The notes beneath the pieces were generated by a model, which saw only the letters and a program-made list of their open reading frames with translations, did no database searches and had not been told where the DNA came from. Shown one piece after another: positions 28,412 through 62,204 of a stretch of 64,000 nt of DNA (position 1 is its first letter; the number at the start of each line of letters is the position of its first letter). This DNA comes from Ruminococcus sp. GTDB taxonomy: Bacteria; Bacillota; Clostridia; Oscillospirales; Ruminococcaceae. The stretch spans positions 146,660 to 210,659 of the forward strand of contig JAFRXL010000043.1 in NCBI GenBank assembly GCA_017441505.1, in the 5' to 3' direction. The position numbers and the translations under genes are program-made.

Positions 28412-28449
28412 TAAAATGTATTCTTATGTAATGAAAGGAATTGATCTCT

Positions 28450-30387
28450 ATGGGTTTAACTTTAACAGAAAAAATTCTCAGAGCACATCTTGTTGACGGT
28501 GAGTACGTCAAGGGTCAGGAGATCGGTATAAAGATCGATCAGACACTTACTCAGGACGCTACAGGTACAATGGCTTACCTCGAATTCGAGGCTATCGGCG
28601 TGCCAAGAGTCAAGACAGAACGCTCAGTAGCTTATATTGACCATAATACACTTCAGAACGGTTTTGAAAATGCTGACGACCACCGCTTCATCGGAAGCGT
28701 TGCAAAGAAGCACGGTATCTATTTCTCACGTCCGGGTAACGGTATCTGCCATCAGGTACACCTTGAGAGATTCGGTATCCCCGGAAAGACTCTCATCGGT
28801 TCGGACAGCCATACTCCTACAGGCGGCGGAATCGGTATGATCGCTATAGGTGCCGGCGGACTTGACGTTGCTGTTGCAATGGGCGGCGGTGCTTACTACA
28901 TAACTTGCCCTAAGGTCGTTAAGGTTGAACTTACAGGCAAGCTTCAGCCATGGGTAGCTGCAAAGGACGTTATCCTTGAAGTTCTCCGCAGACTTTCCGT
29001 AAAAGGCGGTGTAGGCAAGGTAATCGAGTACTGCGGCGAAGGCGTAAAGACACTTTCAGTTCCTGAGAGAGCTACTATCACAAACATGGGTGCAGAGCTT
29101 GGTGCTACAACATCTATATTCCCATCTGACGAGATCACAAAGCAGTTTCTCAAAGCTCAGCAGCGTGAAGAAGTATGGACTCCTCTTTCTGCTGATGCTG
29201 ATGCTGTATATGATGAAGAGCTTACTATAGACCTCAGCAAACTCGTTCCGCTTGCTGCCTGTCCGCATTCTCCTGACAACGTTAAGAGCGTTGAGGAGAT
29301 CGGCAGACTGAAAGTAGATCAGGTTTGTATCGGTTCATGCACAAACTCTTCACTCCTTGATATGCTCAAAGTTGCACATATCTTAAAGGGCAAGACTGTT
29401 GATCCAAGTGTATCACTTGCTATCGCTCCCGGTTCAAAGCAGGTTCTCAATATGCTCGCACAGAACGGTGCTCTCTCCGATCTTATCGAAGCCGGTGCAC
29501 GTATACTTGAAAGTGCGTGCGGTCCATGTATCGGTATGGGACAGTCACCTAACTCCGGCGGTATCTCACTCAGAACCTTCAACAGAAACTTTGAGGGACG
29601 TTCCGGAACAAAGGACGGTCAGATCTACCTTGTATCACCTGAAATGGCTGCTGTATCAGCTCTTACAGGCTACCTCACAGACCCAAGAGAGCTCGGAGAT
29701 ATGCCAGAGTTCAAACTCCCTGAGATATTCACAATAAACGATAATATGGTAGTTCCTCCTGCTTCAGAGGAAGAAATGGACAGCGTAGAGATACTCCGTG
29801 GTCCGAACATCAAGCCATATCCTGAAACTTCACCGCTTCTTGAGACTATTGATGCTCCTGTATCACTCAAGGTCGGCGACAATATCACTACTGACCACAT
29901 TATGCCTGCCGGAGCTAAGATACTTCCGCTCCGTTCCAATATTCCGAAGATCTCACAGCACTGCTTCGCTGTTTGTGACGAGAGCTTCCCTGAGAGAGCT
30001 AAGTCACTCGGAAAGAGCATCATCGTAGGCGGTTCTAACTACGGTCAGGGTTCATCACGTGAGCACGCTGCACTTGCTCCGCTTTACCTCGGAGTAAAGG
30101 CTGTTCTCGTAAAGTCATTCGCAAGAATCCACAGAGCTAACCTCATCAATGCCGGAATCCTTCCGCTCACATTCGTAAATGAAGCTGATTACGATTCTAT
30201 CGCACAGGGTGATGAGCTCGTTCTTGCTGATGTAAGAAAGGCAGTAGAGGCAGGAAAGTCTGAGCTTACAGTCGTTAACAAGACTAATGGCAAGGAGATC
30301 CCTGTACTCTGCGAACTTTCCGGACGTACAAAGGATATTATGCTCGCAGGCGGACTTCTCGATTTCACAAGAGAGTCAATGAAGTGA
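28450..30387 (+). CDS. Aconitate hydratase
   Basis: Cytoplasmic [4Fe-4S] enzyme converting citrate to isocitrate. The 645-residue product matches the short single-chain aconitase group found in clostridia. Cluster ligands lie in GSCTNSS (about Cys 297) and ACGPCIGMG (about Cys 357 and 360). Substrate motifs include GSDSHTPTGGG and, in the swivel domain, NYGQGSSREHAALAP. The ATG at 28450 follows AAAGGA by 10 nt. It is followed by a PARG-like gene and icd, making a citrate-to-2-oxoglutarate segment, probably for glutamate synthesis in an anaerobe. Confidence 0.93.
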   Translation: MGLTLTEKILRAHLVDGEYVKGQEIGIKIDQTLTQDATGTMAYLEFEAIGVPRVKTERSVAYIDHNTLQNGFENADDHRFIGSVAKKHGIYFSRPGNGICHQVHLERFGIPGKTLIGSDSHTPTGGGIGMIAIGAGGLDVAVAMGGGAYYITCPKVVKVELTGKLQPWVAAKDVILEVLRRLSVKGGVGKVIEYCGEGVKTLSVPERATITNMGAELGATTSIFPSDEITKQFLKAQQREEVWTPLSADADAVYDEELTIDLSKLVPLAACPHSPDNVKSVEEIGRLKVDQVCIGSCTNSSLLDMLKVAHILKGKTVDPSVSLAIAPGSKQVLNMLAQNGALSDLIEAGARILESACGPCIGMGQSPNSGGISLRTFNRNFEGRSGTKDGQIYLVSPEMAAVSALTGYLTDPRELGDMPEFKLPEIFTINDNMVVPPASEEEMDSVEILRGPNIKPYPETSPLLETIDAPVSLKVGDNITTDHIMPAGAKILPLRSNIPKISQHCFAVCDESFPERAKSLGKSIIVGGSNYGQGSSREHAALAPLYLGVKAVLVKSFARIHRANLINAGILPLTFVNEADYDSIAQGDELVLADVRKAVEAGKSELTVVNKTNGKEIPVLCELSGRTKDIMLAGGLLDFTRESMK

Positions 30388-31166: not shown

Positions 31167-32378
31167 ATGGCAAAGATAATAATGAAAACTCCTCTCGTTG
31201 AAATGGACGGAGATGAGATGACAAGAATACTCTGGCAGTGGATCAAGGAAACTCTTCTTGAACCATATGTAGAGCTTAATACTGAGTACTATGACCTCGG
31301 ACTCAAACACCGTGAGGAAACTAAAGATCAGGTAACTATCGATTCAGCTGAAGCTACAAAGAAGTACGGAGTAGCTGTAAAGTGTGCGACTATCACACCT
31401 AATGCTGCAAGAATGCCTGAGTATAATCTTACACAGATGTGGAAGTCACCTAACGGTACTATCCGTGCAGCTCTCGACGGAACTGTATTCCGTACACCTA
31501 TCATCGTTAAGGGAATAGAGCCATATATCCCTACATGGACAAAGCCTATAACTATCGCTCGTCATGCTTACGGTGACGTATATAAGAATACAGAGATGCG
31601 TGTAAATAAGGGCAGCAAGGCTGAGCTCGTTGTAACTGACGAGAACGGCAATGAGACCCGTGAGCTTATCCACGATTTCTCAAAGTGTGACGGTATCATT
31701 CAGGGACTTCACAACCTCGATGACTCTATCGCAGGCTTTGCAAGAGCTTGTCTTAACTACGGTCTTGACCTCAAGCAGGACGTTTGGTTCGCATCAAAAG
31801 ATACTATCTCAAAGAAATATGACCACCGTTTCAAGGACATTTTCCAGGAGATCTTTGATAAGGAATATAAGGAAAAATATGAGGCAGCTGGCATCGAGTA
31901 CTTCTATACACTCATCGATGACGCTGTAGCAAGAGTTATCCGTTCAAACGGCGGATATATCTGGGCTTGCAAGAACTACGACGGTGACGTTATGTCCGAC
32001 ATGGTATCTACAGCATACGGCAGTCTTGCTATGATGACTTCCGTTCTCGTTTCACCAGACGGCATCTATGAGTATGAGGCTGCACACGGAACTGTTCAGC
32101 GTCACTACTACAAGTACCTCAAGGGCGAGGAGACTTCAACAAACTCTGTTGCAACTATCTTCGCATGGAGCGGTGCACTCCGCAAGAGAGGCGAGCTTGA
32201 TAATACTCCTGAGCTCTGTGATTTCGCAGATAAGCTTGAAAAGGCTACTATACAGACTATCGAGGACGGCGTTATGACCGGTGACCTTTACCTTATTTCA
32301 AAGCTTGATAATAAGAAGAAGGTAGATTCAAAGACTTTCCTTGACGAAATAAAGGTCAGACTTGATAAATTAATGTAA
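31167..32378 (+). CDS. icd: NADP-dependent isocitrate dehydrogenase
   Basis: Cytoplasmic enzyme converting isocitrate to 2-oxoglutarate with NADP+. The 403-aa protein belongs to the dimeric group that includes eukaryotic enzymes: [13 protein letters not shown] at the start, the substrate loop [17 protein letters not shown], metal ligands in [11 protein letters not shown], and [12 protein letters not shown] near the NADP site. AAAGGAGG lies 10 nt before the ATG. It follows aconitase and the PARG-like gene in the same direction and precedes rex. Confidence 0.95.
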
Positions 32379-32415: not shown

Positions 32416-33069
32416 ATGTCAAAAAACGCAATATCTAATTCAGTAATAAGACGTTTGCCAAGATATTACCGTTTTCTCGGTGAGCTTGAAGCCAATGGAT
32501 ATGTACGCATTTCTTCAAGAGAGCTTTCTGAAAAAATGGGACTTACGGCATCTCAGATACGTCAGGATTTCAATTGCTTCGGTGAGTTCGGACAACAGGG
32601 ATATGGATATAATGTTACTGATCTCCGTGGAGAAATAGGACATATACTCGGACTTGACAAGCTGACTCCGATGATACTTCTTGGTGCGGGAAATCTCGGT
32701 ACAGCCATAGCTTCTCATATAGATTTTCATAACAAAGGCTTCGATCTGATCGGTGCATTCGACACAAATACGGATGTTATCGGCAAGAAGATCGGAGATA
32801 TATCCGTTCAGGGTATCGATGAACTTGAACACTTCTGTACTGACAGTAAACCGGTGGCGGCGATCCTTTGTGTTCCGACTGCTGCTGCGGAGAAAATGGT
32901 CGATGTGCTGATAAGCTATGGCATAAAAGCTTTCTGGAATTTCACGCATTATGATATGAGAGCCGGCAGAAAGGGCATAACAGTTGAAAATGTACATCTC
33001 GGTGACAGTCTGACTACTCTTTCGTATGGTCTTAATTCTATGGAAGAAAGCGAAACTGAAAATAAATAA
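32416..33069 (+). CDS. rex: Redox-sensing transcriptional repressor Rex
   Basis: The 217-aa protein has the Rex winged-helix domain (residues 1-80, VIRRLPRYYRFLGEL, SRELSEKMGLTASQIRQDF, FGQQGYGYNV) and a Rossmann domain with GAGNLGTAIASH and, later, AFWNFTHYDM. Rex senses the NADH/NAD+ ratio and releases DNA when NADH is high, derepressing fermentation and NADH-reoxidising genes. It lies between icd and the fumC/hdr/flx/fumarate-reductase cluster. Two candidate Rex sites follow it. Confidence 0.95.
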   Translation: MSKNAISNSVIRRLPRYYRFLGELEANGYVRISSRELSEKMGLTASQIRQDFNCFGEFGQQGYGYNVTDLRGEIGHILGLDKLTPMILLGAGNLGTAIASHIDFHNKGFDLIGAFDTNTDVIGKKIGDISVQGIDELEHFCTDSKPVAAILCVPTAAAEKMVDVLISYGIKAFWNFTHYDMRAGRKGITVENVHLGDSLTTLSYGLNSMEESETENK

Positions 33070-33116: not shown

Positions 33117-33589
33117 GGATAAATGTGAAAAAATTATCAATCATAATATGGTGATATTCTAAAATGTATATTTTGATATTCTGAATTAGAATTCCAAAAA
33201 GATTCGATTATAAGCGGAAATATATACTACAGGGAAAAATACAGCTGGTTAGCAATACACCGGATAAAAAATAAATTGTGGACTAAATATAATATATCAC
33301 TGATTTTATGCTATTATAAGCTTGAAATAAGACAAAAGCAACAAAAATATAATTGTAGTACTGAATTATATATAGTTATAAATATGGAATATAAATTCAC
33401 ATATATATCTTTAAAAAAATATTCAAAAAATGACCGGTCATACAATTGTGAATTTTATATCAATATCTGAATAGCGATATTCTTAAACTGCATTTGAAAT
33501 TATGCTGTCTTGCTGATATACTATAAATATAAAGTTGATTTTGGCGACCGTATCTGCGGTCCCGTGAGAATAAAAATCAGGGAGAGGAT
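33117..33589 (+). promoter_or_regulatory. AT-rich intergenic region before fumC with two Rex-like sites
   Basis: No gene is seen in these ~470 bp. Two segments resemble the Rex operator TTGTGAAWWWWTTCACAA: ATGTGAAAAAATTATCAA at 33123-33140 and TTGTGAATTTTATATCAA at 33446-33463, each differing at three or four positions, mainly in the second half. The stretch 33250-33480 is very AT-rich. GGGAGAGG at about 33580 is the fumC ribosome site. The promoter could not be fixed with confidence. Confidence 0.35.
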
Positions 33590-34972
33590 ATGTATATGGA
33601 TTACCGTATTGAACATGATTCAATGGGTGAGGTAAAAGTGCCTGCTGATAAGTACTGGGCGGCTCAGACAGAACGCAGTCACGAAAATTTTCTAATCGGT
33701 GTAGGCATAGAAACAATGCCGAGGGAGATAACTTACGCTTTTGGTATTCTGAAAAAGGCTGCGGCAATGGCTAACCATTCATTGAAGCCGGATAGAATGA
33801 CCGATGAAAAGCTTTCAGTTATATCTCAGGCTTGTGACGAAGTTATCAGCGGTTCTCTTAACGAGCATTTTCCGCTTGTTGTATGGCAGACCGGAAGCGG
33901 TACGCAGTCCAACATGAATGCTAACGAAGTTATAGCCAACAGAGGAAATGAACTTGCCGGGGAAAAGCTGCTTCATCCGAATGATGATATAAATATGAGT
34001 CAGTCCTCAAACGATACATTTCCGACCGCAATGCATATCGCAGCTGTACTTGCCATAGAGAATAAGGTCGTACCTGCTGTCGACACTCTTATCGCTACAT
34101 TCAAAAAGCTTGAAGCAGAAAATGAGGGCATCGTAAAAAGCGGACGTACTCATCTTCAGGACGCTACTCCGATAAAATTCTCTCAGGAGATAAGCGGCTG
34201 GAGAGCTTCTCTTGAGAAGGATAAGAAGATGCTCCTTTCAGCTTGTGAGGAGCTTAAAGAACTCGCTCTCGGCGGAACAGCAGTAGGTACCGGACTTAAC
34301 GCTCCGAAGGGATTTGCAGAAAAAGCTGCCGAGGCAGTAAGTGAGCTGACCGGAAAGAAGTTTATAACCTCACCAAATAAGTTCCACTCTCTTACATCAA
34401 AGGACGAGATAGTATTTGCTCATGGTGCTCTTAAAGCTCTTGCGGCTGACATGATGAAGATAGCTAACGATGTAAGATGGCTTGCATCCGGTCCGAGAGA
34501 CGGTCTTGGCGAGATATTTATCCCGGAGAACGAGCCGGGGTCATCTATCATGCCGGGAAAAGTAAATCCGACACAGTGCGAACAGGTAACAATGGTCGCA
34601 GTGCAGGTAATGGGAAATGATGTGACTGTAGGCATGGCTGCATCACAGGGCAACTTTGAGCTCAATGTTTTCATGCCTGTTTGTGCGTATAATTTCTTGC
34701 AGTCCGCAAGACTTCTTGCTGAGTCTATCACAAGCTTCAACAAGAACTGTGCTGTGGGAATAAAGGCAAACAAAGAAAAAATGCACCATAACCTGCATAA
34801 TTCACTAATGCTTGTAACAGCTCTCAATCCTTACATAGGGTACGAGAATGCTGCGAAAACAGCAAAGAAAGCCTTTAAGGACAATATTTCCCTTAAAGAA
34901 GCTTGTGTGGAGCTTGGCTTCCTCACAGCTGAAAAATTTGACGAGGTATTTCACCCAGAGGAAATGGTTTAA
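33590..34972 (+). CDS. fumC: Fumarate hydratase class II
   Basis: Oxygen-stable, iron-free fumarase converting malate and fumarate. The 460-aa product has the superfamily signature GSSIMPGKVNP and the class II motifs GSGTQSNMNANEV, SSNDTFPTAMH and the TxLQDATPI region (GRTHLQDATPIKFSQE). It begins with a GGGAGAGG site; an ATG two codons later could also be used. It is the first gene of the cluster hdrBCA-mvhD-flx-fumarate reductase, so in the cell it probably supplies fumarate from malate to the reductase encoded downstream. Confidence 0.95.
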   Translation: MYMDYRIEHDSMGEVKVPADKYWAAQTERSHENFLIGVGIETMPREITYAFGILKKAAAMANHSLKPDRMTDEKLSVISQACDEVISGSLNEHFPLVVWQTGSGTQSNMNANEVIANRGNELAGEKLLHPNDDINMSQSSNDTFPTAMHIAAVLAIENKVVPAVDTLIATFKKLEAENEGIVKSGRTHLQDATPIKFSQEISGWRASLEKDKKMLLSACEELKELALGGTAVGTGLNAPKGFAEKAAEAVSELTGKKFITSPNKFHSLTSKDEIVFAHGALKALAADMMKIANDVRWLASGPRDGLGEIFIPENEPGSSIMPGKVNPTQCEQVTMVAVQVMGNDVTVGMAASQGNFELNVFMPVCAYNFLQSARLLAESITSFNKNCAVGIKANKEKMHHNLHNSLMLVTALNPYIGYENAAKTAKKAFKDNISLKEACVELGFLTAEKFDEVFHPEEMV

Positions 34973-34995: not shown

Positions 34996-35793
34996 ATGAA
35001 TACTTTCACATACTATCCAGGCTGTACGCTCAGGACCAAAGCTAAAGATCTTGATACTTACGCAAGATCTTCCGCTGAGGCTCTTGGTATCGCTCTTGAA
35101 GAGCCTGCTGACTGGCAGTGCTGCGGCGGAGCGTATACAACAGCTAAGGATGAGATCGCAACAAAGCTCTCAGCAGTAAGAACTCTCAACGCTGCTAAAG
35201 AGCACGACAGACCGCTTATCACAGTCTGTTCAGCTTGTCACAACGTGATAAAGCAGACTAATTATGACATTATCAATGATGAGGATATGGCTTCAAAGAT
35301 AAATAATTATCTGAAGCTCGCAGAGCCTTATAACGGCGAGACAACTGTGTATCACTATCTTGAAATGCTCAGGGATGTAGTTGGTTTCGATAACCTTGCA
35401 CAAAAGGTAGTAAACCCATTCAAGGGCAAAAAGATAGCAGCATACTACGGATGTCTTCTTCTCCGTCCATCAAAGGCACTGGCAATGGATGATCCTGAAA
35501 ATCCAACAATAATGGAGGATTTCATCAAAGCTATCGGCGGAACTCCCGTTATTTACGCCCAGAGAAATGAGTGCTGCGGCGGATATATCACTATGGAGGA
35601 CAAGGCTCAGGCATCAAAGAGAAGCAACGCAGTTATGACCTCAGCTGAGGATCAGGGGGCTGATATGATCATCACCGCCTGTCCATTGTGTCTCTACAAT
35701 CTGAAGAAGAATTCAGATTCAGAGCTTCCGGTATATTACTTCACAGAGCTTCTTGCTGAGGCTCTCGGACTCAAGGAGGGTAACAATGAATAA
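34996..35793 (+). CDS. hdrB: Heterodisulfide reductase subunit B-like (HdrB)
   Basis: The 265-aa product has two CCG domains, each Cx(n)CCGx(n)CxxC, as in HdrB, which bind the noncubane [4Fe-4S] clusters at the disulfide-reducing site. The first has YYPGCTLR, QCCGGAY and CSACHNV; the second has YYGCLLLRP, ECCGGYI and CPLCLYN. In methanogens HdrB reduces CoM-S-S-CoB; bacteria lack that substrate, so here the electron acceptor must differ. The gene starts 23 bp after fumC and overlaps hdrC by 8 nt. Confidence 0.92.
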   Translation: MNTFTYYPGCTLRTKAKDLDTYARSSAEALGIALEEPADWQCCGGAYTTAKDEIATKLSAVRTLNAAKEHDRPLITVCSACHNVIKQTNYDIINDEDMASKINNYLKLAEPYNGETTVYHYLEMLRDVVGFDNLAQKVVNPFKGKKIAAYYGCLLLRPSKALAMDDPENPTIMEDFIKAIGGTPVIYAQRNECCGGYITMEDKAQASKRSNAVMTSAEDQGADMIITACPLCLYNLKKNSDSELPVYYFTELLAEALGLKEGNNE

Positions 35794-36169
35794 GAACCTC
35801 AAGGAACAAGTTCTTCGTGCCAGCGGAGTTAATGTTCTTAAATGTATGCGTTGCGGAAAGTGCTCCGGCACCTGCCCCTCCTACGATGAAATGGAATATC
35901 ATCCGCATCAGTTTGTGTATATGGTAGAGAAAGGCGATATAGAGCCGCTTCTGAACTCAAAGTCACTTTATAAATGCCTTACCTGCTTTGCTTGTGTAGA
36001 GAGATGTCCAAGAAATGTCGAGCCTGCAAAGGTCGTAGAAGCAGTAAGACTTGCCGCAGTACGTCAGCAGGGCAACAACCATATGTCACCGGCACAGCTT
36101 CCGGAAATGCTCGATGATGACCTGCCGCAGCAGGCTATCGTAACTGCATTCAGAAAATACGTAAAGTAA
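35786..36169 (+). CDS. hdrC: Heterodisulfide reductase subunit C-like (HdrC)
   Basis: Small ferredoxin-like subunit of 127 aa with two [4Fe-4S] motifs, CMRCGKCSGTCPSY and CLTCFACVERCPRN. It should pass electrons from HdrA to HdrB. I chose the ATG at 35786, which overlaps the hdrB stop and has AAGGAGGG upstream; an in-frame codon at 35753 lies inside hdrB and has no ribosome site. hdrA follows after 15 bp. Confidence 0.92.
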   Translation: MNKNLKEQVLRASGVNVLKCMRCGKCSGTCPSYDEMEYHPHQFVYMVEKGDIEPLLNSKSLYKCLTCFACVERCPRNVEPAKVVEAVRLAAVRQQGNNHMSPAQLPEMLDDDLPQQAIVTAFRKYVK

Positions 36170-36184
36170 GGAGGAGATATTACT

Positions 36185-38176
36185 ATGCAGAGAATAGGTG
36201 TATTTGTCTGTCATTGCGGAACGAATATAGCTGCAACAGTTGACGTGAAAGCTGTCGCAGAGGCACTCGGTCACGAGCCGGGAGTAGTCATCTCCCAGGA
36301 CTATCAGTATATGTGTTCTGAATCGGGACAGAATCTCGTAAAGAACGCTATAAAAGAACACAGCCTTACCGGTGTTGTAATATGTTCATGCTCACCAAGA
36401 ATGCATGAGAACACTTTCAGAAAAGCAGCAGCTGCTGCCGGACTTAACCCATACCTCGTAGAGATAGCAAATATCCGTGAACAGTGTTCATGGATACACA
36501 AGGATATAGCTACAGCCTCTGAAAAAGCAATAATCCTCGGCAGAGCTGCCATAGCTAAGGTACATCTCAATGCACCTCTTATAGCAGGCGAAAGTCCTGT
36601 AGCCAAGAGAGCTCTCGTTATCGGCGGAGGTATCGCAGGTATCCAGACTGCTCTTGATATTGCAGAAGCAGGATTCGATGTTGACATCGTAGAAAAACAG
36701 CCTACTATCGGCGGTAAAATGGCTCAGATAGACAAGACTTTCCCGACTCTTGACTGTGCCGCTTGTATCCTTACACCAAAAATGGTCGAGGCTTCACAGA
36801 ATGAGAAAATACATATCCACTCATTCAGTGAAGTAACAGATGTAAAGGGATTCGTAGGTAACTTCACTGTTACAATAAAAAAGAAAGCTCGTTTTGTTGA
36901 CGAGACTAAGTGTACCGGATGCGGACTTTGTACAGAAAAATGTCCTATGAAGAAAGTTCCTAATGAGTTCAATATGGGACTCGATAACAGAACAGCAATA
37001 TATATCCCTTTTGCTCAGGCAGTACCGAAGGTCGCAACTATCGACCCTAATTACTGTATGATGCTTAAAAACGGCAAATGCGGAGTTTGCTCAAAGGTAT
37101 GTTCAGTCGGAGCTATCAACTATAAGCAGCAGGACAGATTCATTGAAGAAAAATACGGTGCTATCGTAGTTGCTACCGGATTCAATCCTATAAAGCTCGA
37201 TAAATATGATGAATTCGCATATAACCAGTCGCCTGATGTTGTTACATCACTTGAACTTGAAAGACTTATGAATGCTGCCGGACCTAACGGCGGTACACTC
37301 CTTCGTCCTTCTGATAAGACACATCCTCACAAGATAGTATTTGTGCAGTGCGTTGGTTCAAGATGCGACGACAGCAAGGGTAAGCCTTATTGCTCAAAGA
37401 TATGCTGTATGTATACAGCTAAGCACGCAATGCTTATCCGTGAGAAATATCCGGATACAGAAGTATATGTATTCTATATCGACGTTCGTACTCCGGGCAA
37501 GAACTTTGACGAGTTCTACCGCAGAGCTGTAGAGCAGTATAACGTACATTACATAAAGGGCATGGTCGGCAAGGTAACTCCTAAGAGCGACGGAAAACTT
37601 GCAGTTCAGGCGTCTGACCTTCTCTCAAATGAGCAGCTCCACATCGATGCTGACATGGTAGTGCTTGCAGCTGCCATTGAACCGGACAAAACTGCACGTC
37701 CGCTTGCAACAATGCTCACGACACAAATGGATACAAACGACTTCTTCACTGAAGCACATCCTAAGCTTCGTCCTGTAGAGAGTGCAACAGCAGGTATATT
37801 CCTTTCCGGTGCCTGTCAGGGTCCAAAGGACATTCCGGAGACCGTAGCACAGGCAAGTGCAGCCGCAGCAAAGGCTATCGGACTTCTCTGCAAGAACAGT
37901 ATTACCTGCAATCCGTGTGTTGCTCATTCAGATGAGCTTATGTGCAACGGCTGTTCATCATGCGAAAAGGTTTGTCCATACGGTGCTATCACATATATCG
38001 ATAAAGAGTTCAGAATGCCTGACAGAACAACTGCAATACGCAGAGTTGCAAGTGTCAATCCGGCTGTGTGTCAGGGATGCGGAGCTTGTACTGTTGCTTG
38101 TCCGTCAGGTGCTATGGACCTCAACGGCTTCTCTAACAGTCAGATAATGGCGGAGGTAGATGCAATATGCAAATGA
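36185..38176 (+). CDS. hdrA: Heterodisulfide reductase subunit A-like flavoprotein (HdrA)
   Basis: The 663-aa product has the HdrA order: N-terminal GVFVCHCGTNIA, an FAD domain with VIGGGIAGIQTALDIAEAG (about 143-161), an internal ferredoxin motif CTGCGLCTEKCP (about 243), a C-terminal double ferredoxin (CNGCSSCEKVCP and CQGCGACTVACP). HdrA is the flavin-based electron-bifurcating centre of Hdr complexes. Extra cysteine motifs (CAACILTP; CVGSRCDDSKGKPYC) are also present. It overlaps mvhD by 10 nt, so the subunits are made together. Confidence 0.93.
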   Translation: MQRIGVFVCHCGTNIAATVDVKAVAEALGHEPGVVISQDYQYMCSESGQNLVKNAIKEHSLTGVVICSCSPRMHENTFRKAAAAAGLNPYLVEIANIREQCSWIHKDIATASEKAIILGRAAIAKVHLNAPLIAGESPVAKRALVIGGGIAGIQTALDIAEAGFDVDIVEKQPTIGGKMAQIDKTFPTLDCAACILTPKMVEASQNEKIHIHSFSEVTDVKGFVGNFTVTIKKKARFVDETKCTGCGLCTEKCPMKKVPNEFNMGLDNRTAIYIPFAQAVPKVATIDPNYCMMLKNGKCGVCSKVCSVGAINYKQQDRFIEEKYGAIVVATGFNPIKLDKYDEFAYNQSPDVVTSLELERLMNAAGPNGGTLLRPSDKTHPHKIVFVQCVGSRCDDSKGKPYCSKICCMYTAKHAMLIREKYPDTEVYVFYIDVRTPGKNFDEFYRRAVEQYNVHYIKGMVGKVTPKSDGKLAVQASDLLSNEQLHIDADMVVLAAAIEPDKTARPLATMLTTQMDTNDFFTEAHPKLRPVESATAGIFLSGACQGPKDIPETVAQASAAAAKAIGLLCKNSITCNPCVAHSDELMCNGCSSCEKVCPYGAITYIDKEFRMPDRTTAIRRVASVNPAVCQGCGACTVACPSGAMDLNGFSNSQIMAEVDAICK

Positions 38177-38613
38177 ATGAAAATAAAGAATTTGAGCCGC
38201 TGATAGTTGCATTCTGCTGCAACTGGTGTTCCTATGCAGGAGCAGATCTTTCCGGTACAAACAGACTTAATTACCCGACTAATGTAAAGATAATCAGAGT
38301 TCCTTGTTCATGCAGAGTTAATCCTATGTTTATCCTGCGTGCTTTCCAGAGAGGTGCAGACGGAGTTATCCTCTGCGGATGTCACCCGGGGGACTGCCAC
38401 TATACTTCAGGCAACTATTTCACAAGAAGAAGAATGACCCTTCTTTTCAGTATGCTTGATTTCCTCGGAATTGAAAGAGACAGAACAAGAGTTGAATGGG
38501 TATCAGCAGCAGAAGGTGCTAAGTTTGCAGCTACTATGAATGAATTCACAGAAGCAGTAAAAAAACTTGGTCCTAACCGCAGATTGGAGGATTTACGATG
38601 CAGGAAGCAATAA
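38167..38613 (+). CDS. mvhD: MvhD/FlxD-type [2Fe-2S] electron-transfer subunit
   Basis: The 148-aa product matches the hydrogenase delta subunit family: FCCNWCSYAGADLSG near the N-terminus, VPCSCRVNP, and GCHPGDCHYTSGNYF. In MvhADG-HdrABC and in FlxABCD-HdrABC this protein links the electron-donating module to HdrA. No hydrogenase large or small subunit gene is present here, which points to the Flx (NAD(P)H) version. It overlaps hdrA at its start and the next gene at its end (16 nt). Confidence 0.9.
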   Translation: MQMNENKEFEPLIVAFCCNWCSYAGADLSGTNRLNYPTNVKIIRVPCSCRVNPMFILRAFQRGADGVILCGCHPGDCHYTSGNYFTRRRMTLLFSMLDFLGIERDRTRVEWVSAAEGAKFAATMNEFTEAVKKLGPNRRLEDLRCRKQ

Positions 38614-39569
38614 TAAATAAAGCAAAACAGCTTCTGGCTGACGGCACTGTAGATCGTGTGATCGGCTGGAAAAAGGGAGAGTTCGCTTACGATATTACTC
38701 CGGCAGTTTTTGGATCAGCTGAAGAGATAGATGCTGATTTTGTGTATGATGATTTTACATCTGCCAATGTTTCAAAGTATCTTGTCAAAGAGACTAAGAA
38801 AGAGGGAAAGGTCCTTGTTTTCCTTAAACCTTGCGATACATACAGTCTGAATCAGCTCATTAAGGAGCACAGAGTTGACCGTGAAAAGGTATATGTTGTC
38901 GGAATACCTGGCGGTCCTAAGCTTGATATTGAAAAGATAAAGGCTAAGGGCATAAGCGGAATCCTCAGCGTAAAGAATGAGAATTATACTCTGAAAATAG
39001 AAACTATCTACGGCGAGGAGACTATGCCGTTCAGCGAGGCTATACTCGATAAGTGTGCATCATGCAAGAGCAAAAAGCACGTAGTTTATGACGAGCTGAT
39101 AGGTGAGGACGGAGAAGTCCTTGAGTCAAACCGCTTCGATATGGTGGAACAGCTTGAAAATATGACAGCTGAGGAACGCTATAATTTCTGGAGAGAGCAG
39201 CTTTCAAAGTGTATCCGCTGCAATGCGTGCCGCAACGTCTGTCCTGCCTGCACTTGTGAGAAGTGCGTATTCGATAATCCTACCTCAGGTGTTGAGAATA
39301 AGGCTGCTTCAGACAGCTTTGAGGAGAATATGTTCCACATCATCCGAGCTTTCCATGTTGCCGGAAGATGTACCGACTGCGGCGAGTGTTCAAGAGTTTG
39401 CCCTCAGAATATACCGCTCCACCTCCTCAACAGAAAGTTCATCAAGGATATAAATTCGCTTTACGGTGAGTATCAGGCAGGCGAGGATACAACATCCCGT
39501 GCTCCGCTTACAAACTATACTTTTGATGACTGCGAAGCAAGTATCGTACATGAAAGGGGAGTTGAGTAA
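38598..39569 (+). CDS. Iron-sulfur subunit, FrhB-like/FlxC-like
   Basis: The 323-aa product has an N-terminal region like coenzyme F420 hydrogenase beta/FdhB relatives (FLKPCDTYSLNQLI; CASCKSKKHVVYDEL) and a C-terminal double ferredoxin (CIRCNACRNVCPACTC and CTDCGECSRVCPQ). It lies between mvhD and the AsrA-like gene, the position of the additional Fe-S subunit in flx clusters. It shares one base with the next start. The assignment as FlxC rests on gene order and domain type. Confidence 0.75.
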   Translation: MQEAIINKAKQLLADGTVDRVIGWKKGEFAYDITPAVFGSAEEIDADFVYDDFTSANVSKYLVKETKKEGKVLVFLKPCDTYSLNQLIKEHRVDREKVYVVGIPGGPKLDIEKIKAKGISGILSVKNENYTLKIETIYGEETMPFSEAILDKCASCKSKKHVVYDELIGEDGEVLESNRFDMVEQLENMTAEERYNFWREQLSKCIRCNACRNVCPACTCEKCVFDNPTSGVENKAASDSFEENMFHIIRAFHVAGRCTDCGECSRVCPQNIPLHLLNRKFIKDINSLYGEYQAGEDTTSRAPLTNYTFDDCEASIVHERGVE

Positions 39570-40588
39570 TGCTAAGAATATCACTTGATAAGATCGACGA
39601 ATTATTTGAAGCTGTAAATTCTCAGCAGGCTCTCTATATCCCTACTGACCGCAAAGACGGTGCAGCTGAGTACAAAAAGTACGAGAGCGGCATGAAAATG
39701 AGCAATAAGCTCAATACAGTCCGCAGTGCAAAAGACTTCTTCTTCCCACAGACTGAAAATCTTGTAGAGTTCAAGATGGAAGGAAAAAAGATAGAAGTCA
39801 AGGACATCAGAGAGGAATCTGAAGATTTCGTTATCTTTGGAGTTCGTGCCTGCGACGCAAGAAGCTTCACGATCCTTGATAAAGTCTACCTTGTTGAGCC
39901 TGTTGACAGCTTCTATAAAAATCGCCGTGACCACGGTACAGTAGTTACTATGGCTTGTACAAGACCTTCCGAGACCTGTTTCTGTCAGACTTTCGGCATC
40001 GACCCTACTGCTCCCGAAGGGGACGCAGCTTGCTGGAGCGACGGTTCATTCCTTTATTTCAAAGCAAATACTGACAAGGGACAGAAGTTCATAGATTCTA
40101 TCAGCTCACTCCTTGATGACGGCGATACCGCTGAGCTTGACAAGGCTATAGAAAAGACTAAAACAATAATGTCGAAGCTTCCTCTTGCAAACCTCTCAAC
40201 AGAGAATTTCGGAGGAGACAAGCTCAACGAATACTTCAATTCCGATAAGTGGGGAGAGCTTTCTGAAAGCTGTCTCGGCTGCGGTACCTGCACTTTTGTT
40301 TGCCCGACCTGTCAGTGCTATGACATCAAGGACTTCAACACAGGCGACGGTATCAAGCGTTTCCGCTGCTGGGATTCATGTATGTATTCAGACTTTACCA
40401 AAATGGCTCACGGAAATCCAAGACTTACTCAGCTTGAACGTTTCCGTCAGAGATTCATGCATAAGCTCGTATATTTCCCGAAGAATAATGAGGGAGAATT
40501 CGGCTGTGTAGGATGCGGAAGATGTCTTTCCAAGTGTCCTATCTCAATGAATATAGTCAAGGTAATGAAAGCATTGGAGGTAAAGTGA
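39569..40588 (+). CDS. 4Fe-4S dicluster subunit, AsrA-like/FlxB-like
   Basis: The 339-aa product resembles anaerobic sulfite reductase subunit A. Its ~220-residue N-terminal part contains FGVRACDARSFTILDKVY and CFCQTFGIDP. A C-terminal double ferredoxin has CLGCGTCTFVCPTCQCYD and CVGCGRCLSKCP. In Asr and Flx complexes this subunit pairs with the FAD/NAD(P)H subunit encoded next. No siroheme subunit (AsrC) follows, so sulfite reduction is not the role. Its stop overlaps the next ATG (TGATG). Confidence 0.8.
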   Translation: MLRISLDKIDELFEAVNSQQALYIPTDRKDGAAEYKKYESGMKMSNKLNTVRSAKDFFFPQTENLVEFKMEGKKIEVKDIREESEDFVIFGVRACDARSFTILDKVYLVEPVDSFYKNRRDHGTVVTMACTRPSETCFCQTFGIDPTAPEGDAACWSDGSFLYFKANTDKGQKFIDSISSLLDDGDTAELDKAIEKTKTIMSKLPLANLSTENFGGDKLNEYFNSDKWGELSESCLGCGTCTFVCPTCQCYDIKDFNTGDGIKRFRCWDSCMYSDFTKMAHGNPRLTQLERFRQRFMHKLVYFPKNNEGEFGCVGCGRCLSKCPISMNIVKVMKALEVK

Positions 40589-41418
40589 TGAACAGTAACG
40601 ATACATTGATCCCATATATCGGCGTCGTTACAGATATTCGTATCGACACTCCCGATGTAAAAACATTCCGAGTTGAAGCTCCGGAGGGCGGCAAGGTCTT
40701 TGAGCATATGCCAGGACAGTGTGCAATGCTTTCTATCCCAGGTGTAGGCGAGGCAATGTTCTCGATAACATCATCCCCTACAAACAAAGAGTTCATGGAG
40801 TTCAGCATCAAGAAGTGCGGATGCCTTACAAACTGGCTCCACGCAATGGATGTCGGACAGATGATAACTATCAGAGGACCATACGGCAATGCATTCCCTG
40901 TTGAAACAGAGCTCAAGGGAAAAGACCTTCTCTTTATTGCCGGAGGTATCGGACTTGCTCCGCTTCGTTCGGTTATAAATTACGTCCGTGATAACAGAGA
41001 TAACTACGGTGATGTTCAGATAGTATACGGCTCACGCTCAAAGGATGACCTTGTTGATTACAAGGAGATACTCGATGAATGGATGAGCGACAAGGGTATA
41101 GACGTAAACCTCACTATCGATAATCCGCAGGAAGGCTGGGACGGTCACGTAGGATTCGTTCCTAACTATGTAAAAGAACTTAATCCTTCTACAAGCAAGA
41201 CTGTTCTCGTCTGCGGACCGCCTATAATGATAAAGTTTACTCTTGCCGGTCTTAAAGAGCTTGGCTTTACAGAGACTCAGGTGTATACTACTATGGAACT
41301 TCGTATGAAATGCGGTGTCGGAAAATGCGGAAGATGCAACATAGGAAATAAATATGTGTGCAAGGACGGCCCTGTTTTCCGTTTCGATCAGCTTGACGAG
41401 CTGCCGGATGAATATTGA
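40588..41418 (+). CDS. NAD(P)H/FAD oxidoreductase subunit, FlxA/AsrB-like
   Basis: The 276-aa product has a ferredoxin-NADP reductase fold: an FAD-binding barrel (FSITSSPTNKEF; RGPYGNAFPVE), an NAD(P) domain (IAGGIGLAPLRSVINYV; VCGPPIMIKFT), and a C-terminal [2Fe-2S] cysteine set (KCGVGKCGRCNIG, then VCKDGPVF). It is the likely NADH entry point of the whole complex. The ATG at 40588 overlaps the upstream stop and has GGAGG just before it. The fumarate-reductase-like genes follow after 18 bp. Confidence 0.85.
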   Translation: MNSNDTLIPYIGVVTDIRIDTPDVKTFRVEAPEGGKVFEHMPGQCAMLSIPGVGEAMFSITSSPTNKEFMEFSIKKCGCLTNWLHAMDVGQMITIRGPYGNAFPVETELKGKDLLFIAGGIGLAPLRSVINYVRDNRDNYGDVQIVYGSRSKDDLVDYKEILDEWMSDKGIDVNLTIDNPQEGWDGHVGFVPNYVKELNPSTSKTVLVCGPPIMIKFTLAGLKELGFTETQVYTTMELRMKCGVGKCGRCNIGNKYVCKDGPVFRFDQLDELPDEY

Positions 41419-41436
41419 TGATAAGGAGCAAACAAC

Positions 41437-42120
41437 ATGGATAATATGATTAATGTTTACCTGTTCGGTAAGAAGTATCAGGTGCCGGCAGGACTTACAA
41501 TAATGACAGCAATGGAATACGCAGGCTATGAACTCGTAAGAGGATGCGGATGCAGAAACGGTTTCTGCGGAGCCTGTGCTACGATATACAGGATAAAAGG
41601 CGAGTCTGAACTCCACGGATGTCTTGCCTGTCAGACAGAGGTACAGGAAAATATGTACGTTGCAACTCTGCCTTTCTTCCCGCTTGAAAAGAAAATATAC
41701 AGCATAGAGGAGATCAAACCGGATCAGCAGGTAATGATGCAGCTCTACCCTGAGATATATGCCTGTGTAGGATGTAACGCTTGCACTAAGGCTTGTACTC
41801 AGGAACTCAATGTTATGCAGTATATCGCATACGCCCAGAGAGGCGAGTACGACAAGTGTGCTGAGGAGAGCTTCGACTGTGTAATGTGCGGAGTATGTTC
41901 ATCACGCTGTCCTGCCGGGATCTCACATCCACAGGTCGCTATGCTTGCAAGAAGACTCAACGGTAAGTACATAGCTCCTGAATGTCAGCATCTTGCAGAC
42001 CGTGTAAACGAAGTCAATGAGGGCATCTATGATGAGAAAATGGCTGAGCTTATGGCAAAAGCTGTCGACAGTGTACAGGAACTCAAAGATATGTACAATA
42101 ACAGAGAGATAGAAAAGTAA
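41437..42120 (+). CDS. Fumarate reductase/succinate dehydrogenase iron-sulfur subunit-like
   Basis: The 227-aa product has an N-terminal plant-type [2Fe-2S] domain (GCGCRNGFCGACA, then HGCLACQTEV) and a C-terminal pair of ferredoxin motifs (CVGCNACTKACTQ and CVMCGVCSSRCP). This layout matches SdhB/FrdB/TfrB, but both C-terminal motifs are ferredoxin-like, so the usual [3Fe-4S] site next to a quinone is not obvious. That fits a soluble enzyme without quinone. The flavoprotein gene follows after 12 bp. No membrane-anchor subunit gene (SdhC/FrdC) is present. Confidence 0.85.
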   Translation: MDNMINVYLFGKKYQVPAGLTIMTAMEYAGYELVRGCGCRNGFCGACATIYRIKGESELHGCLACQTEVQENMYVATLPFFPLEKKIYSIEEIKPDQQVMMQLYPEIYACVGCNACTKACTQELNVMQYIAYAQRGEYDKCAEESFDCVMCGVCSSRCPAGISHPQVAMLARRLNGKYIAPECQHLADRVNEVNEGIYDEKMAELMAKAVDSVQELKDMYNNREIEK

Positions 42121-42132
42121 GGAGGAGCAGAG

Positions 42133-43737
42133 ATGTATAAGATAGATAAACTTAACGAGCTTGCAAAGGTAGTTGCAGCTAAGAGAGCAGAAAATACTCC
42201 TCTTGAACCAAGAAGAATGACTGCTGAGGAAAAGGATGACCTTCTTGCTCACTTCCATCCGGATTACAAGCAGGATGAGTTCACAGTACTTTCAGCAGGC
42301 GTGAATAAGGGCGACAAAGTTCCTACACAGCTTGCAGAGCTTTTACAGGGCAAGAGCCGTATCAGTGCATCCGATGTTGACCTCAGCAATCCGGATTATG
42401 AAACTGATGTACTTATCATCGGCGGCGGCGGAGCAGGTGCATCCGCAGCTATCGAAGCAGACGAAGCAGGCGTTAAAGCTATGATCGTAACAAAGCTTCG
42501 TATCGGTGACGCAAATACAATGATGGCAGAAGGCGGAATACAGGCAGCTGATAAGCCAAATGATTCTCCGGCTATCCACTTCCTCGACGCTTTCGGCGGC
42601 GGACATTTTGCTGCAAAGCCTGAACTCGTAAAGAAGCTCGTAACCAAAGCTCCTGAGGCTATCCAGTGGCTCAACAAGCTCGGAGTTGAGTTCGATAAGG
42701 AAGCAGACGGAACAATGGTAACAACTCACGGCGGCGGTACATCACGCAAGAGAATGCACGCTGCAAAGGACTATTCCGGTGCGGAGATAATGCGTACTCT
42801 CCGTGACGAGGTGCTCAACAGAGGTATACCTGTTGTTGACTTTACCGCTGCGATAGAGATAATTCTTGATAAAGACGGCAAGGCTGCCGGTGCAGTGCTT
42901 ATGAATATGGAGACTAAGGAGCTGCTCGTTGCAAAGGCAAAGACAGTTATCATCGCAACAGGCGGTGCAGGACGTCTCCACTATCAGGGCTTCCCGACTT
43001 CAAACCACTACGGTGCAACAGCTGACGGACTTATCCTCGGCTACAGAGTCGGAGCAAAGCTCCTCTACGCTGATACACTTCAGTATCATCCGACAGGAAC
43101 AGGCTATCCGGAGCAGATATTCGGTGCACTGGTTACTGAGAAGGTACGTTCACTCGGAGCAAAGCTCGTTAATATCGACGGTGACGTTTTCATGCATCCG
43201 CTTGAGACTCGTGACGTTACTGCTGCTTCTATCATCCGTGAGTGTACAGAAAGGAATAAGGGTGTCGAGACAAATCTCGGTAAGGCAGTATGGCTCGATA
43301 CTCCAATGATAGAGTTAAAGCACGGCGAAGGAACTATCGAGAAGCGTATCCCTGCAATGATGAGAATGTTCGGTAAATACGGCATAGATATTCGCAAAGA
43401 ACCTATCCTCGTTTACCCGACACTTCACTATCAGAACGGCGGACTTGACATAACTGACGACTGTGCAACAGGAGTCGAGAATCTTTACGCAGCCGGTGAG
43501 GTCGCCGGAGGTATACACGGAAGAAACCGACTTATGGGCAACTCACTGCTTGATGTTATCGTATTCGGAAGAAATGCCGGTATCTACGCAGCTGCAAAGG
43601 CTAAGGATACTGCTTCACCGGAGGGGCTTACTCTTGACCATATCGAAAAGTTCAACAAAGAACTCGCAGAAGCAGGCGTAGCAGGTGAGACTGCATCACC
43701 AATGCTGCTTCCACATTACGCAAGAAAGTCAAAATAA
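42133..43737 (+). CDS. Soluble fumarate reductase/succinate dehydrogenase flavoprotein subunit
   Basis: The 534-aa product is an FAD-dependent member of the SdhA/FrdA/L-aspartate oxidase family: IIGGGGAGASAAIEADEAG (about 95-113), AEGGIQAADKPNDS, the substrate loop TTHGGGTSRKRMHAAKD, TLQYHPTG, the catalytic-Arg region (TERNKGVETNLGKAVWLD), and GGIHGRNRLMGNSLLDVIVFG near the C-terminus. It lacks most of the C-terminal domain of quinone-linked SdhA. With the Fe-S gene just upstream it forms a soluble two-subunit reductase, comparable in type to the thiol:fumarate reductase of methanogens. Expected reaction: fumarate to succinate. Confidence 0.85.
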   Translation: MYKIDKLNELAKVVAAKRAENTPLEPRRMTAEEKDDLLAHFHPDYKQDEFTVLSAGVNKGDKVPTQLAELLQGKSRISASDVDLSNPDYETDVLIIGGGGAGASAAIEADEAGVKAMIVTKLRIGDANTMMAEGGIQAADKPNDSPAIHFLDAFGGGHFAAKPELVKKLVTKAPEAIQWLNKLGVEFDKEADGTMVTTHGGGTSRKRMHAAKDYSGAEIMRTLRDEVLNRGIPVVDFTAAIEIILDKDGKAAGAVLMNMETKELLVAKAKTVIIATGGAGRLHYQGFPTSNHYGATADGLILGYRVGAKLLYADTLQYHPTGTGYPEQIFGALVTEKVRSLGAKLVNIDGDVFMHPLETRDVTAASIIRECTERNKGVETNLGKAVWLDTPMIELKHGEGTIEKRIPAMMRMFGKYGIDIRKEPILVYPTLHYQNGGLDITDDCATGVENLYAAGEVAGGIHGRNRLMGNSLLDVIVFGRNAGIYAAAKAKDTASPEGLTLDHIEKFNKELAEAGVAGETASPMLLPHYARKSK

Positions 43738-43801: not shown

Positions 43802-45043
43802 ATGGAATTATTTAATGGTATTCTGGCAGTAAAAGGAATAACATTCCTTATGTTTTCTGTGCTTGGGATTGCAGCTCTCGGATATATACTCGGCAGGGTC
43901 ACAATAAAGGGTATATCTCTTGGAACAGCAGGAGTTTTCCTTGTGGCACTCCTCTTCGGATGCATTTTCCACGAAGAACTCACCGGACAGCTTGTGACAA
44001 ACATAAAAGACGGAACAGGTTCGATAGTTGACAAAGTATCATTCGTAGATTCGGCATTGAAAATAGTCGATAATATCGGACTTATACTTTTTGTAACGGC
44101 AGTAGGATTTATTGCCGGACCAAATTTCTTCGGAAATTTCAAGAAGAATTTCAAATCTTATGTAGTTCTTGCAGTAATAATCATTTTCAGCGGCGGACTT
44201 GCCTGTGCCGGATGTATTGCAGTTGGCAGAAACTTCACAGACCTCAGCAATGATGAATTCACAGCACTTATGACTGGAATCCTTTCAGGTGCTCTTACAA
44301 GTACACCAGGATTTTCAGCTGCAAAGGATGCAGCTCCGGATTATCAGGGAGCAGTATCAGTAGGATATGGTATCGCCTATATTTTCGGAGTTCTCGGAGT
44401 AGTTCTCTTTGTGCAGATCATTCCAAAAATACTCGGAGCAAACATGGCAAAAGAGCGTGAATTGCTTGGTACTGCTGCAAAGAAAGCTGAGGCTAAAAAG
44501 AAAGAATCCAAACTTATACAAATGGATGATTTCGGAATAATGCCGTTTGCTCTTGCAGCAACTCTCGGAATTATTGTAGGAGCATTCAAGTTTAAGAATT
44601 TCTCACTTTCAACAACAGGAGGATGTCTCCTTGTTTCACTTCTGTTCGGTCATTTCGGAAAGATCGGAAAGGTCAATATTATGCCAAAAGACACAACTCT
44701 CAAGGTTTTCAGAGAGCTTGGACTTATGCTTTTCCTCATAGGTGCGGGCGTGTCCGGCGGAGCAAAGTTTGCTGAGTATTTCAAGGCAATTTATTTTGTG
44801 TATGGAATAATAATGACAATAGTACCTATGGTGCTTGGATTCCTTTTTGCGAAATACGTCCTCAAACTAAGCCTTCTCAACAACCTCGGTTCAATTACCG
44901 GAGGCATGACATCAACTCCGGCACTGGGAACACTTATCAGTACAGCAGGAACAGAAAATGTTGCATCAGCATATGCCGCAACATATCCTGTAGCACTTAT
45001 CTCAGTAGTTCTCGTATCTCAGTTTTTGATAATGCTATTTTAG
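43802..45043 (+). CDS. AspT/YbjL-type (AAEX) antiporter lacking central RCK domains
   Basis: The 413-aa membrane protein is an internal duplication with the AAEX hallmark in both halves: SGALTSTPGFSAAKDA and GGMTSTPALGTLISTAGTEN, the latter followed by AYAATYPVAL. About ten membrane segments are visible. The hydrophilic centre (about 217-240, KKAEAKKKESK) is short; typical members of ~550 aa carry two TrkA-C domains there. Family members exchange aspartate/alanine or export succinate (SucE of Corynebacterium). Its place 64 bp after the fumarate reductase gene suggests dicarboxylate export. Confidence 0.8.
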   Translation: MELFNGILAVKGITFLMFSVLGIAALGYILGRVTIKGISLGTAGVFLVALLFGCIFHEELTGQLVTNIKDGTGSIVDKVSFVDSALKIVDNIGLILFVTAVGFIAGPNFFGNFKKNFKSYVVLAVIIIFSGGLACAGCIAVGRNFTDLSNDEFTALMTGILSGALTSTPGFSAAKDAAPDYQGAVSVGYGIAYIFGVLGVVLFVQIIPKILGANMAKERELLGTAAKKAEAKKKESKLIQMDDFGIMPFALAATLGIIVGAFKFKNFSLSTTGGCLLVSLLFGHFGKIGKVNIMPKDTTLKVFRELGLMLFLIGAGVSGGAKFAEYFKAIYFVYGIIMTIVPMVLGFLFAKYVLKLSLLNNLGSITGGMTSTPALGTLISTAGTENVASAYAATYPVALISVVLVSQFLIMLF

Positions 45044-62203: not shown

Positions 62204-62204
62204 A

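Follow-up and report, generated by a model that had tools for sequence, protein, structure and literature searches.

A predicted NADH:ferredoxin, fumarate oxidoreductase operon in Ruminococcus that joins Flx-Hdr genes to a soluble fumarate reductase pair

Described systems and the Ruminococcus operon

In the FlxABCD-HdrABC system of Desulfovibrio vulgaris, reportedly described by Ramos in 2015, no fumarate reductase pair (FrdBA) is said to be joined to the complex, and the proposed high-potential partner is said to be the thiol protein DsrC. The same seven kinds of subunit (HdrA, HdrB, HdrC, FlxA, FlxB, FlxC and FlxD/MvhD), again with NADH as donor, are encoded together as a complete set in 64,000 nucleotides of Ruminococcus contig JAFRXL010000043.1 (hereafter the window, in whose numbering all unprefixed positions are given), where genes for FrdB and FrdA follow them directly. 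DsrC, unlike in D. vulgaris, was not found in any of eight R. flavefaciens-type genomes (the window genome and seven others, our background set).

Other described gene sets come close to this nine-gene run (here and below, what is taken from a cited paper is limited to its sections on these points). As in the window, Pseudoclostridium thermosuccinogenes carries fumarase, Flx-Hdr, fumarate reductase and (putative) transporter genes in one run, its “succinate operon” CDQ83_RS03365-03315, with NADH dehydrogenase/heterodisulfide reductase at RS03360-30 and fumarate reductase at RS03325-20; fumarate reduction was assumed there to be coupled to ferredoxin reduction, citing a preprint (10.20944/preprints201912.0288), and the operon was ~4-fold up under CO2 limitation, not significantly so for every subunit (PMC7282089). 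Unlike the window organism, P. thermosuccinogenes is a thermophile of another genus, and the likeness comes from the printed gene list, not from sequence (PMC7282089). In tubeworm symbionts and Thioflavicoccus, tfrAB is interspersed with flxABCD-hdrABC and korABCD in reductive tricarboxylic acid (rTCA) clusters (PMC6315080; PMC11636981). As in ours, fumarate reductase genes are linked there to Flx-Hdr, and electrons are proposed to be delivered directly, to tfrAB and OGOR, but these clusters are gammaproteobacterial, of the TfrAB type and have OGOR genes interspersed (PMC6315080); the expression pattern of symbiont tfrAB differed from that of the rest of the cluster (PMC11636981). MetFV-HdrABC-MvhD of Moorella thermoacetica, proposed to carry NADH electrons to a non-disulfide substrate enzyme, is a further precedent, differing in its substrate, methylene-tetrahydrofolate, and in that Flx subunits are not named in the section concerned (PMC5861303).

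We think it probable that the product of the Ruminococcus operon is a soluble NADH:ferredoxin, fumarate oxidoreductase, in which FrdBA is coupled to Flx-Hdr and electrons are bifurcated; the coupling of FrdBA to Flx-Hdr, taken alone, is very likely. Gene content, gene order, ligands, active-site residues and co-occurrence support this reading of the operon. The observation is confirmed, and the mechanism, which is plausible, has gained support, while the hypothesis is already in print, to judge from the relevant sections of PMC7282089 and PMC6315080. New here is the comparative side: FrdB is near-universal in the genus, HdrA is single-copy in 13 genomes and tracks FrdA exactly among the order genomes tested, and the FrdBA module is tied to Flx-Hdr in several lineages, which together sharpen the testing of the published idea.

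All nine open reading frames (ORFs) lie on the + strand between 34996 and 43737, in the order hdrB (34996..35793), hdrC (35786..36169), hdrA (36185..38176), mvhD/flxD (38167..38613), flxC (38598..39569), flxB (39569..40588), flxA (40588..41418), frdB (41437..42120) and frdA (42133..43737). A sequence-only reading of this stretch by a model had described such a tight run with fumC before it, and every ORF was indeed found: neighbours overlap or lie within 12 bp at six of the eight junctions (in order, -8, 15, -10, -16, -1, -1, 18 and 12 bp), the widest gap being the 18 bp between flxA and frdB. The starts of hdrC and flxA are most likely the ATGs at 35786 and 40588, not the mechanical ORF starts. 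The class II fumarase gene fumC (33590..34972, + strand; TIGR00979, 706 bits, cut-off 664.75) stops 23 bp short of hdrB, and an AspT/YidE/YbjL-type transporter gene (43802..45043, + strand; TIGR01625, 134 bits, cut-off 71.95), perhaps for a succinate exporter, begins 64 bp past frdA, so that the predicted transcription unit probably comprises 11 genes, from fumC to the transporter. Within the operon there is neither a membrane anchor gene nor a recognised disulfide-substrate gene. The window genome is a Ruminococcus flavefaciens-like metagenome-assembled genome (MAG) of 2.24 Mb, 79.6% complete; by FrdB it is nearest, among named records, to L030, a Ruminococcus MAG from sheep rumen (99% identity), and next to other records of Ruminococcus and R. 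flavefaciens.

Subunits and the proposed reaction

Pfam domains are consistent with the naming of all nine proteins and none reaches the cut-off of the NCBIfam models shown; judged by their sequences, they are a divergent set rather than textbook equivalogs. HdrA, the FAD subunit and likely bifurcating site, aligns over residues 3-660 of 663 with its counterpart in the solved 5odc complex (E 8.5e-208), scores 799 bits on NCBIfam HdrA2 (cut-off 1100) and has its inserted and C-terminal ferredoxin motifs intact. Its K413 pairs with K409 of chain 5odc_A; no role for this lysine is mentioned in the sections of PMC5861303 used here, and it does not enter our evidence. HdrB has a CCG domain with two CCG motifs and matches solved HdrB chains, its top NCBIfam profiles being an SdhE-type anchor and HdrB, neither over cut-off; HdrC is a 4Fe-4S dicluster protein with two 4Fe-4S motifs and all eight ligand cysteines kept. 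Among the 75 loci with all nine genes full length (see below), ligand cysteines are 0.99-1.00 conserved in the HdrB CCG, HdrC 4Fe-4S and HdrA ferredoxin motifs, with all ten of HdrB at 100%. MvhD/FlxD is the 2Fe-2S subunit (Pfam FlpD, 186.6 bits), FlxC an Fe-S subunit placed by domain and conservation analysis, FlxB an AsrA/sulfhydrogenase-beta-like Fe-S subunit (Pfam Fer4_22; NCBIfam ShyB, 173.5 bits, below cut-off) and FlxA the NAD(P)H/FAD subunit (Pfam NAD_binding_1, FAD_binding_6 and DHODB_Fe-S_bind).

The flavoprotein FrdA (FAD_binding_2), aligned with E. coli K-12 FrdA, SdhA and NadB, keeps H319, T335, E336, R360, H432 and R466, which we take to be the catalytic histidines and arginines and the Thr-Glu pair; in the same alignment it shows no C-terminal domain. 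It resembles complex II and quinol:fumarate reductase in its FAD-domain sequence and active-site residues, but differs from them in having Asn128 at the position of the covalent-FAD histidine. Its N-terminal extension of ~85 residues is a family-wide feature, present too at loci without a neighbouring Hdr gene, because the phylum FrdA matches begin at profile positions 1-5. FrdB (227 aa; Fer2_4 plus 4Fe-4S) has one 2Fe-2S motif and two CxxCxxCxxxC motifs, of which motif 2, CxxCxxCxxxCP, fits a 4Fe-4S cluster, the quinone-side 3Fe-4S motif of complex II being absent. Cys151 occupies the position that holds Val in the 3Fe-4S motif of E. coli FrdB and Ile in that of SdhB, a placement made by eye from motif order, as automatic alignment left the motifs out of register. 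A quinone-linked complex II was rejected on these grounds: no anchor, no covalent-FAD histidine and a 4Fe-4S in place of a 3Fe-4S motif. L-aspartate oxidase was also rejected, since FrdA has Gly at the position of the marker Glu (presumably a NadB signature), scores 272.1 bits on TIGR00551 (cut-off 452.75), and the window genome has, on another contig, a separate NadB-like gene (449 of 472 bits) that is one gene away from nadC; that genome's own NadB-like protein also falls just under the TIGR00551 cut-off, at 432.1 bits. The best curated profile for FrdA is TfrA of the methanogen TfrAB, yet at 343.6 bits against a cut-off of 718, and FrdB scores 40.3 bits on TfrB (cut-off 385); unlike TfrB, it has no HdrB-like part (no CCG domain match in Pfam), HdrB being a separate gene. 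By its residues, then, FrdBA is classed as a fumarate reductase type, neither quinone-linked nor NadB, and the soluble, anchorless SdhB/SdhA-like pair of the sequence-only reading stands.

In the mechanism that we infer (a single complex, its electron path, bifurcation with its direction, and stoichiometry), NADH would enter at FlxA and its electrons reach the HdrA flavin (FAD) by way of FlxB/FlxC and MvhD/FlxD, to be split there. One branch would run through the HdrA ferredoxin domains to ferredoxin; on the other, HdrC and HdrB would hand electrons to FrdB, and FrdA would use them at its FAD to reduce fumarate to succinate, for a net reaction of 2 NADH + fumarate + 2 Fd(ox) -> 2 NAD+ + succinate + 2 Fd(red). 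FumC would supply the fumarate, the transporter would export the succinate, and reduced ferredoxin (Fd(red)) would be re-oxidised by Rnf (forming an ion gradient) or by hydrogenase. With fumarate/succinate at +33 mV, the standard free energy of the coupled reaction comes to about -49 kJ per fumarate at a ferredoxin potential of -420 mV and to -33 kJ at -500 mV; energetics permit it. The potentials of NADH (-320 mV) and ferredoxin (-420 mV) are those given in PMC5861303.

The gene background would offer such a reaction both a substrate and outlets. RnfC, [FeFe]-hydrogenase and GTP-PEPCK are over cut-off in 8/8 background genomes, with rnfD and rnfA over cut-off beside rnfC in the window genome; ATP-PEPCK was rejected as oxaloacetate entry, being found in 0/8 against 8/8 for the GTP type. 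The complex-II anchor Sdh_cyt (PF01127) was found in none of the eight, and neither menD nor MqnC exceeds its cut-off in any of them; both have weaker matches in 8/8 (strongest menD 163.9 of 244.2 bits, in G457), which are taken as paralogs. This background therefore makes a quinone-free route from phosphoenolpyruvate (PEP) through oxaloacetate and fumarate to succinate plausible, as predicted from genes, and gives reduced ferredoxin its outlets. The earlier suggestion of quinone-independent succinate formation is upheld as far as the missing markers and anchor go, and is limited by its dependence on two marker families that both have weaker matches.

The proposed complex bears on the fumarate to succinate step of quinone-less Clostridia such as R. 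flavefaciens, and rumen bacterial succinate feeds propionate formation. If the enzyme is bifurcating, two ferredoxins would be reduced per succinate and Rnf could build an ion gradient from them, so that energy would be drawn from fumarate reduction without a quinone or a membrane-bound reductase, and fumarate would join the short list of HdrA acceptors. For R. flavefaciens the products listed are acetate, succinate, formate and H2, and for R. albus they are acetate, ethanol, H2 and CO2, with true growth yields on cellulose of 0.23-0.30 for R. flavefaciens FD-1 and 0.11 for R. albus 7 (PMC9785684, Table 2); the products agree with PMC8865330, which adds that some R. albus strains form a little succinate. 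The higher R. flavefaciens yield may suit extra energy conservation, among many other possible causes. R. flavefaciens succinate falls in methanogen co-culture (PMC7174568, citing Latham and Wolin, 1977).

Conservation in the genus, order and phylum

We compared 97 loci, comprising 16 from relatives' genomes, 80 from named contigs and the window itself, with at least four being the same contig counted twice. Because they were retrieved via FrdB or FrdA, it is the adjacent position of hdr and flx that carries information. Of the 97, 75 have the nine genes at full length; contig ends truncate most of the other 22, and a few have a gene that is broken or incomplete (L023 = L052, L051, L053 and L066). 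In loci with both genes of a pair, these lie on one strand without exception: flxA-frdB in 96/96 (<=100 bp apart in 95), hdrB-hdrC in 78/78, hdrA-mvhD in 88/88, frdB-frdA in 97/97, fumC-hdrB in 76/76 (<=100 bp in 64) and frdA-transporter in 87/87 (<=100 bp in 55). The nine-gene arrangement is far beyond chance. FrdB is present in 68 of 72 genus genomes (the window's included, the others being >=90% complete), and one of the four without it, G004, has a partial frdA at a contig end. Isolates with the operon include FD-1, 007c, ATCC 19208, YAD2003, YRD2003 and YL228.

At the level of the order, HdrA (E<=1e-80) was found in 5/5 other genomes with FrdA and 0/18 without it (23 genomes, G039 being left out of the test; nominal Fisher p 3e-5, kinship not corrected), and at the same threshold it is single-copy in 13 genomes, namely these five and the eight of R. 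flavefaciens type. Judged from gene occurrence, Flx-Hdr in genus and order genomes looks dedicated to FrdBA. Two of the loci deserve separate mention. MAG UBA2900 has two operon copies (L023/L052 and L024/L063), one with fumC, flxC, flxA and frdA in pieces, maybe from a strain mixture; and L088, on a contig filed as uncultured Treponema, carries an operon sequence close to the Clostridia copies, by transfer or mis-binning.

Across the phylum, FrdA (E<=1e-100) occurs in 39 of 398 genomes, the window's included, and 39 loci were fetched from the other 38. Judged by their neighbours, whose family names rest on one or few representatives each, 5 loci have a complete Flx-Hdr, 11 (two contig-cut) a large HdrA-like FAD/Fe-S protein together with Hdr subunits, 4 HdrC-HdrB alone, and 6 class I fumarase and malic enzyme but no Hdr; pyruvate carboxylase, a cytochrome b561-type protein and FMN-binding or cytochrome-c-type genes mark 3 loci each; 2 loci have no clear partner (one without frdB), 1 is untyped and 1 is contig-cut. 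A fumarase-type, malic enzyme or pyruvate carboxylase gene lies in 22/39 of these stretches, two of the 22 being represented by fumC-like genes 38-40% identical to the window FumC, which could be aspartase-type. Longer stretches showed flxCBA in L146, L153, L154 and L178. The malic enzyme/fumarase neighbours of L155, which like L170 carries frdA (tblastn), were borne out. In L157, near a contig start, frdBA stands with a CoA-transferase gene and no malic enzyme or fumarase was confirmed there; L177 is contig-cut, and L159 has frdA with frdB unmatched. FrdBA also occurs without Hdr, and coupling to Flx-Hdr is therefore not obligatory; from these neighbourhoods, FrdBA is best described as a module with varied electron inputs across the phylum.

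Gene order had been proposed as a check on the sequence-only reading, to be refuted if the pair stood apart from hdr-flx in relatives. FrdBA lies with hdr-flx in all genus and order loci where the contig allows a check, whereas in distant phylum genomes the two are often separate or no HdrA was found, leaving that reading, overall, partly supported. Where FrdBA is linked to Flx-Hdr, three gene orders occur: hdrBCA-flxDCBA-frdBA, frdBA-hdrBCA-flxDCBA and hdrCBA-flxDCBA-frdBA. On a quick FrdA tree, with 22 of 56 labelled rows being Flx-Hdr, labels revised in part with the tree already in view and L014 left out of the count as its contig begins inside frdB, the Flx-Hdr-linked rows need 4 state changes, at least 3 of them forced by starred branches, and a single clade of such rows is rejected (p-AU 0.017). 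This means either repeated joining or an old link often lost or rearranged, and either way speaks for a functional tie between FrdBA and Flx-Hdr. A wider picture, to which we give even chances, is that a modular quinone-free FrdBA was joined to Flx-Hdr in three FrdA lineages, with fumarate a recurrent high-potential acceptor of HdrA and HdrC-HdrB the socket, while other lineages use other donors.

Several further observations concern these phylum genomes. An HdrA-like protein of 1000-1500 aa is encoded between hdr genes and frdBA in L143 (8535-11744), L144, L161, L169, L171, L173, L174 and L176; that of L143, the one scanned, has Pyr_redox_2 and many 4Fe-4S matches and is a possible alternative electron input to FrdBA. 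In L147, L152, L160 and L162 the genes run hdrC-hdrB-frdB-frdA with hdrA not adjacent and, in 3/4, adjoining class I fumarase genes; by its gene content this run looks like a split TfrB-type fumarate reductase. A 173-aa ORF beside a stand-alone Flx-Hdr (L184:3272-3790; Pfam C_GCAxxG_C_C; split-Soret-cytochrome-like, below cut-off), with an ORF of the same size near flxA in L187 (3088-3606), possibly encodes a partner of Flx-Hdr where FrdBA is elsewhere. In three genomes hdrA has one in-frame TGA (G310:C63:17720-19696, G138:C153:20362-22338 and G092:C65:34612-36585), possibly a selenocysteine codon in the HdrA of stand-alone Flx-Hdr. G149 has two FrdA genes of the FrdBA family (C1:1756798-1758396 and 1846859-1848472), with unlike neighbours and one without frdB.

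Alternative readings, regulation and flanking genes

Several points weigh against a bifurcating, FrdBA-coupled Flx-Hdr. HdrABC genes are by themselves no proof of bifurcation (PMC5861303), and a disulfide site in HdrB may still be possible because both of its non-cubane cluster motifs are kept. Among 28 FrdA-bearing phylum genomes HdrA was found somewhere in 24 but not, at E<=1e-80, in 4, and in 12 fetched genomes Flx-Hdr occupies a separate locus without FrdBA (complete in 11, contig-cut in 1). The absence of quinones is judged from two marker families with sub-cut-off matches. Literature searches, in which subscription journals were sparsely covered, yielded no published purification or assay among the matches listed, and no paper with the phrase “bifurcating fumarate reductase” or its variants.

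The FrdBA-coupled complex might exist with HdrA as a mere relay, acting as a plain NADH:fumarate reductase without ferredoxin coupling, which we regard as unlikely. Uncoupled transfer from NADH to fumarate is strongly downhill (~-68 kJ), and a soluble NADH-dependent fumarate reductase is reportedly found in Hydrogenobacter thermophilus; a relay, however, would seem not to require the full HdrABC-MvhD set, and HdrA retains both groups of ferredoxin motifs and matches 5odc HdrA over almost its full length. It is distinctly improbable, in our view, that HdrB reduces a small-molecule or protein disulfide while FrdBA is a separate fumarate reductase, using a thiol or another donor, that merely shares the operon. 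The fully conserved ten HdrB cysteines, the TfrA profile at the top of the FrdA matches and the many phylum loci where FrdBA has no adjacent Hdr would all fit that arrangement, but DsrC, rejected as a route for HdrB electrons, is missing from all eight background genomes, the operon has no gene for a recognised disulfide substrate, and three gene orders join FrdBA to Flx-Hdr. The four hdrC-hdrB-frdB-frdA loci without adjacent hdrA suggest contact between HdrB and FrdB, though HdrA is elsewhere in those genomes. TfrB is a fusion of SdhB-like and HdrB-like parts, both of which its profile spans.

Reversal of the coupled reaction, with succinate and reduced ferredoxin co-oxidised and NAD+ reduced (confurcation), is very improbable here: a missing covalent-FAD histidine, as in FrdA, favours fumarate reduction, R. 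flavefaciens excretes succinate and a transporter gene closes the operon. The layout of the six phylum genomes with frdBA, malic enzyme and class I fumarase could suit succinate oxidation, with Flx-Hdr elsewhere in the five of them that were fetched. We can give hardly any credence to another unsaturated acid as the substrate of FrdA, to which the presence of urocanate reductase among its relatives with solved structures might point, as the fumarate-site residues are kept, fumC lies in the same gene run, and fumarate-related genes (fumarase-type, malic enzyme or pyruvate carboxylase) accompany over half of the phylum FrdA loci.

Upstream of fumC lies rex, for an NADH/NAD+-sensing repressor (32416..33069, + strand; NCBIfam NF003990, 278 bits, cut-off 233), identified also by synteny and found upstream in the genus loci whose contigs extend to it. 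Against what we take to be the Rex consensus, a Rex-like box with 2 mismatches lies at -115 to -161 of fumC in 23 of 43 upstream regions (related sequences) and one with <=2 mismatches at other positions in 3 more; the remaining 17, the window's own included, have at least 3, and <=2 mismatches arose in 1.4% of block shuffles. The window box (33446..33463, + strand; 3 mismatches) taken alone is at chance level. From the family of boxes we infer that the NADH/NAD+ ratio may control the operon through Rex.

Just 5' of rex-fumC, aconitase (28441-30387) and NADP isocitrate dehydrogenase (31167-32378) genes, both over cut-off, form the oxidative half of a split tricarboxylic acid cycle beside its reductive half, and the order icd-rex-fumC was found again in genus loci. 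Farther along the window, at 62124-63758, lies a gene for a large CcrB/XisF-like serine recombinase, with scores below curated cut-offs.

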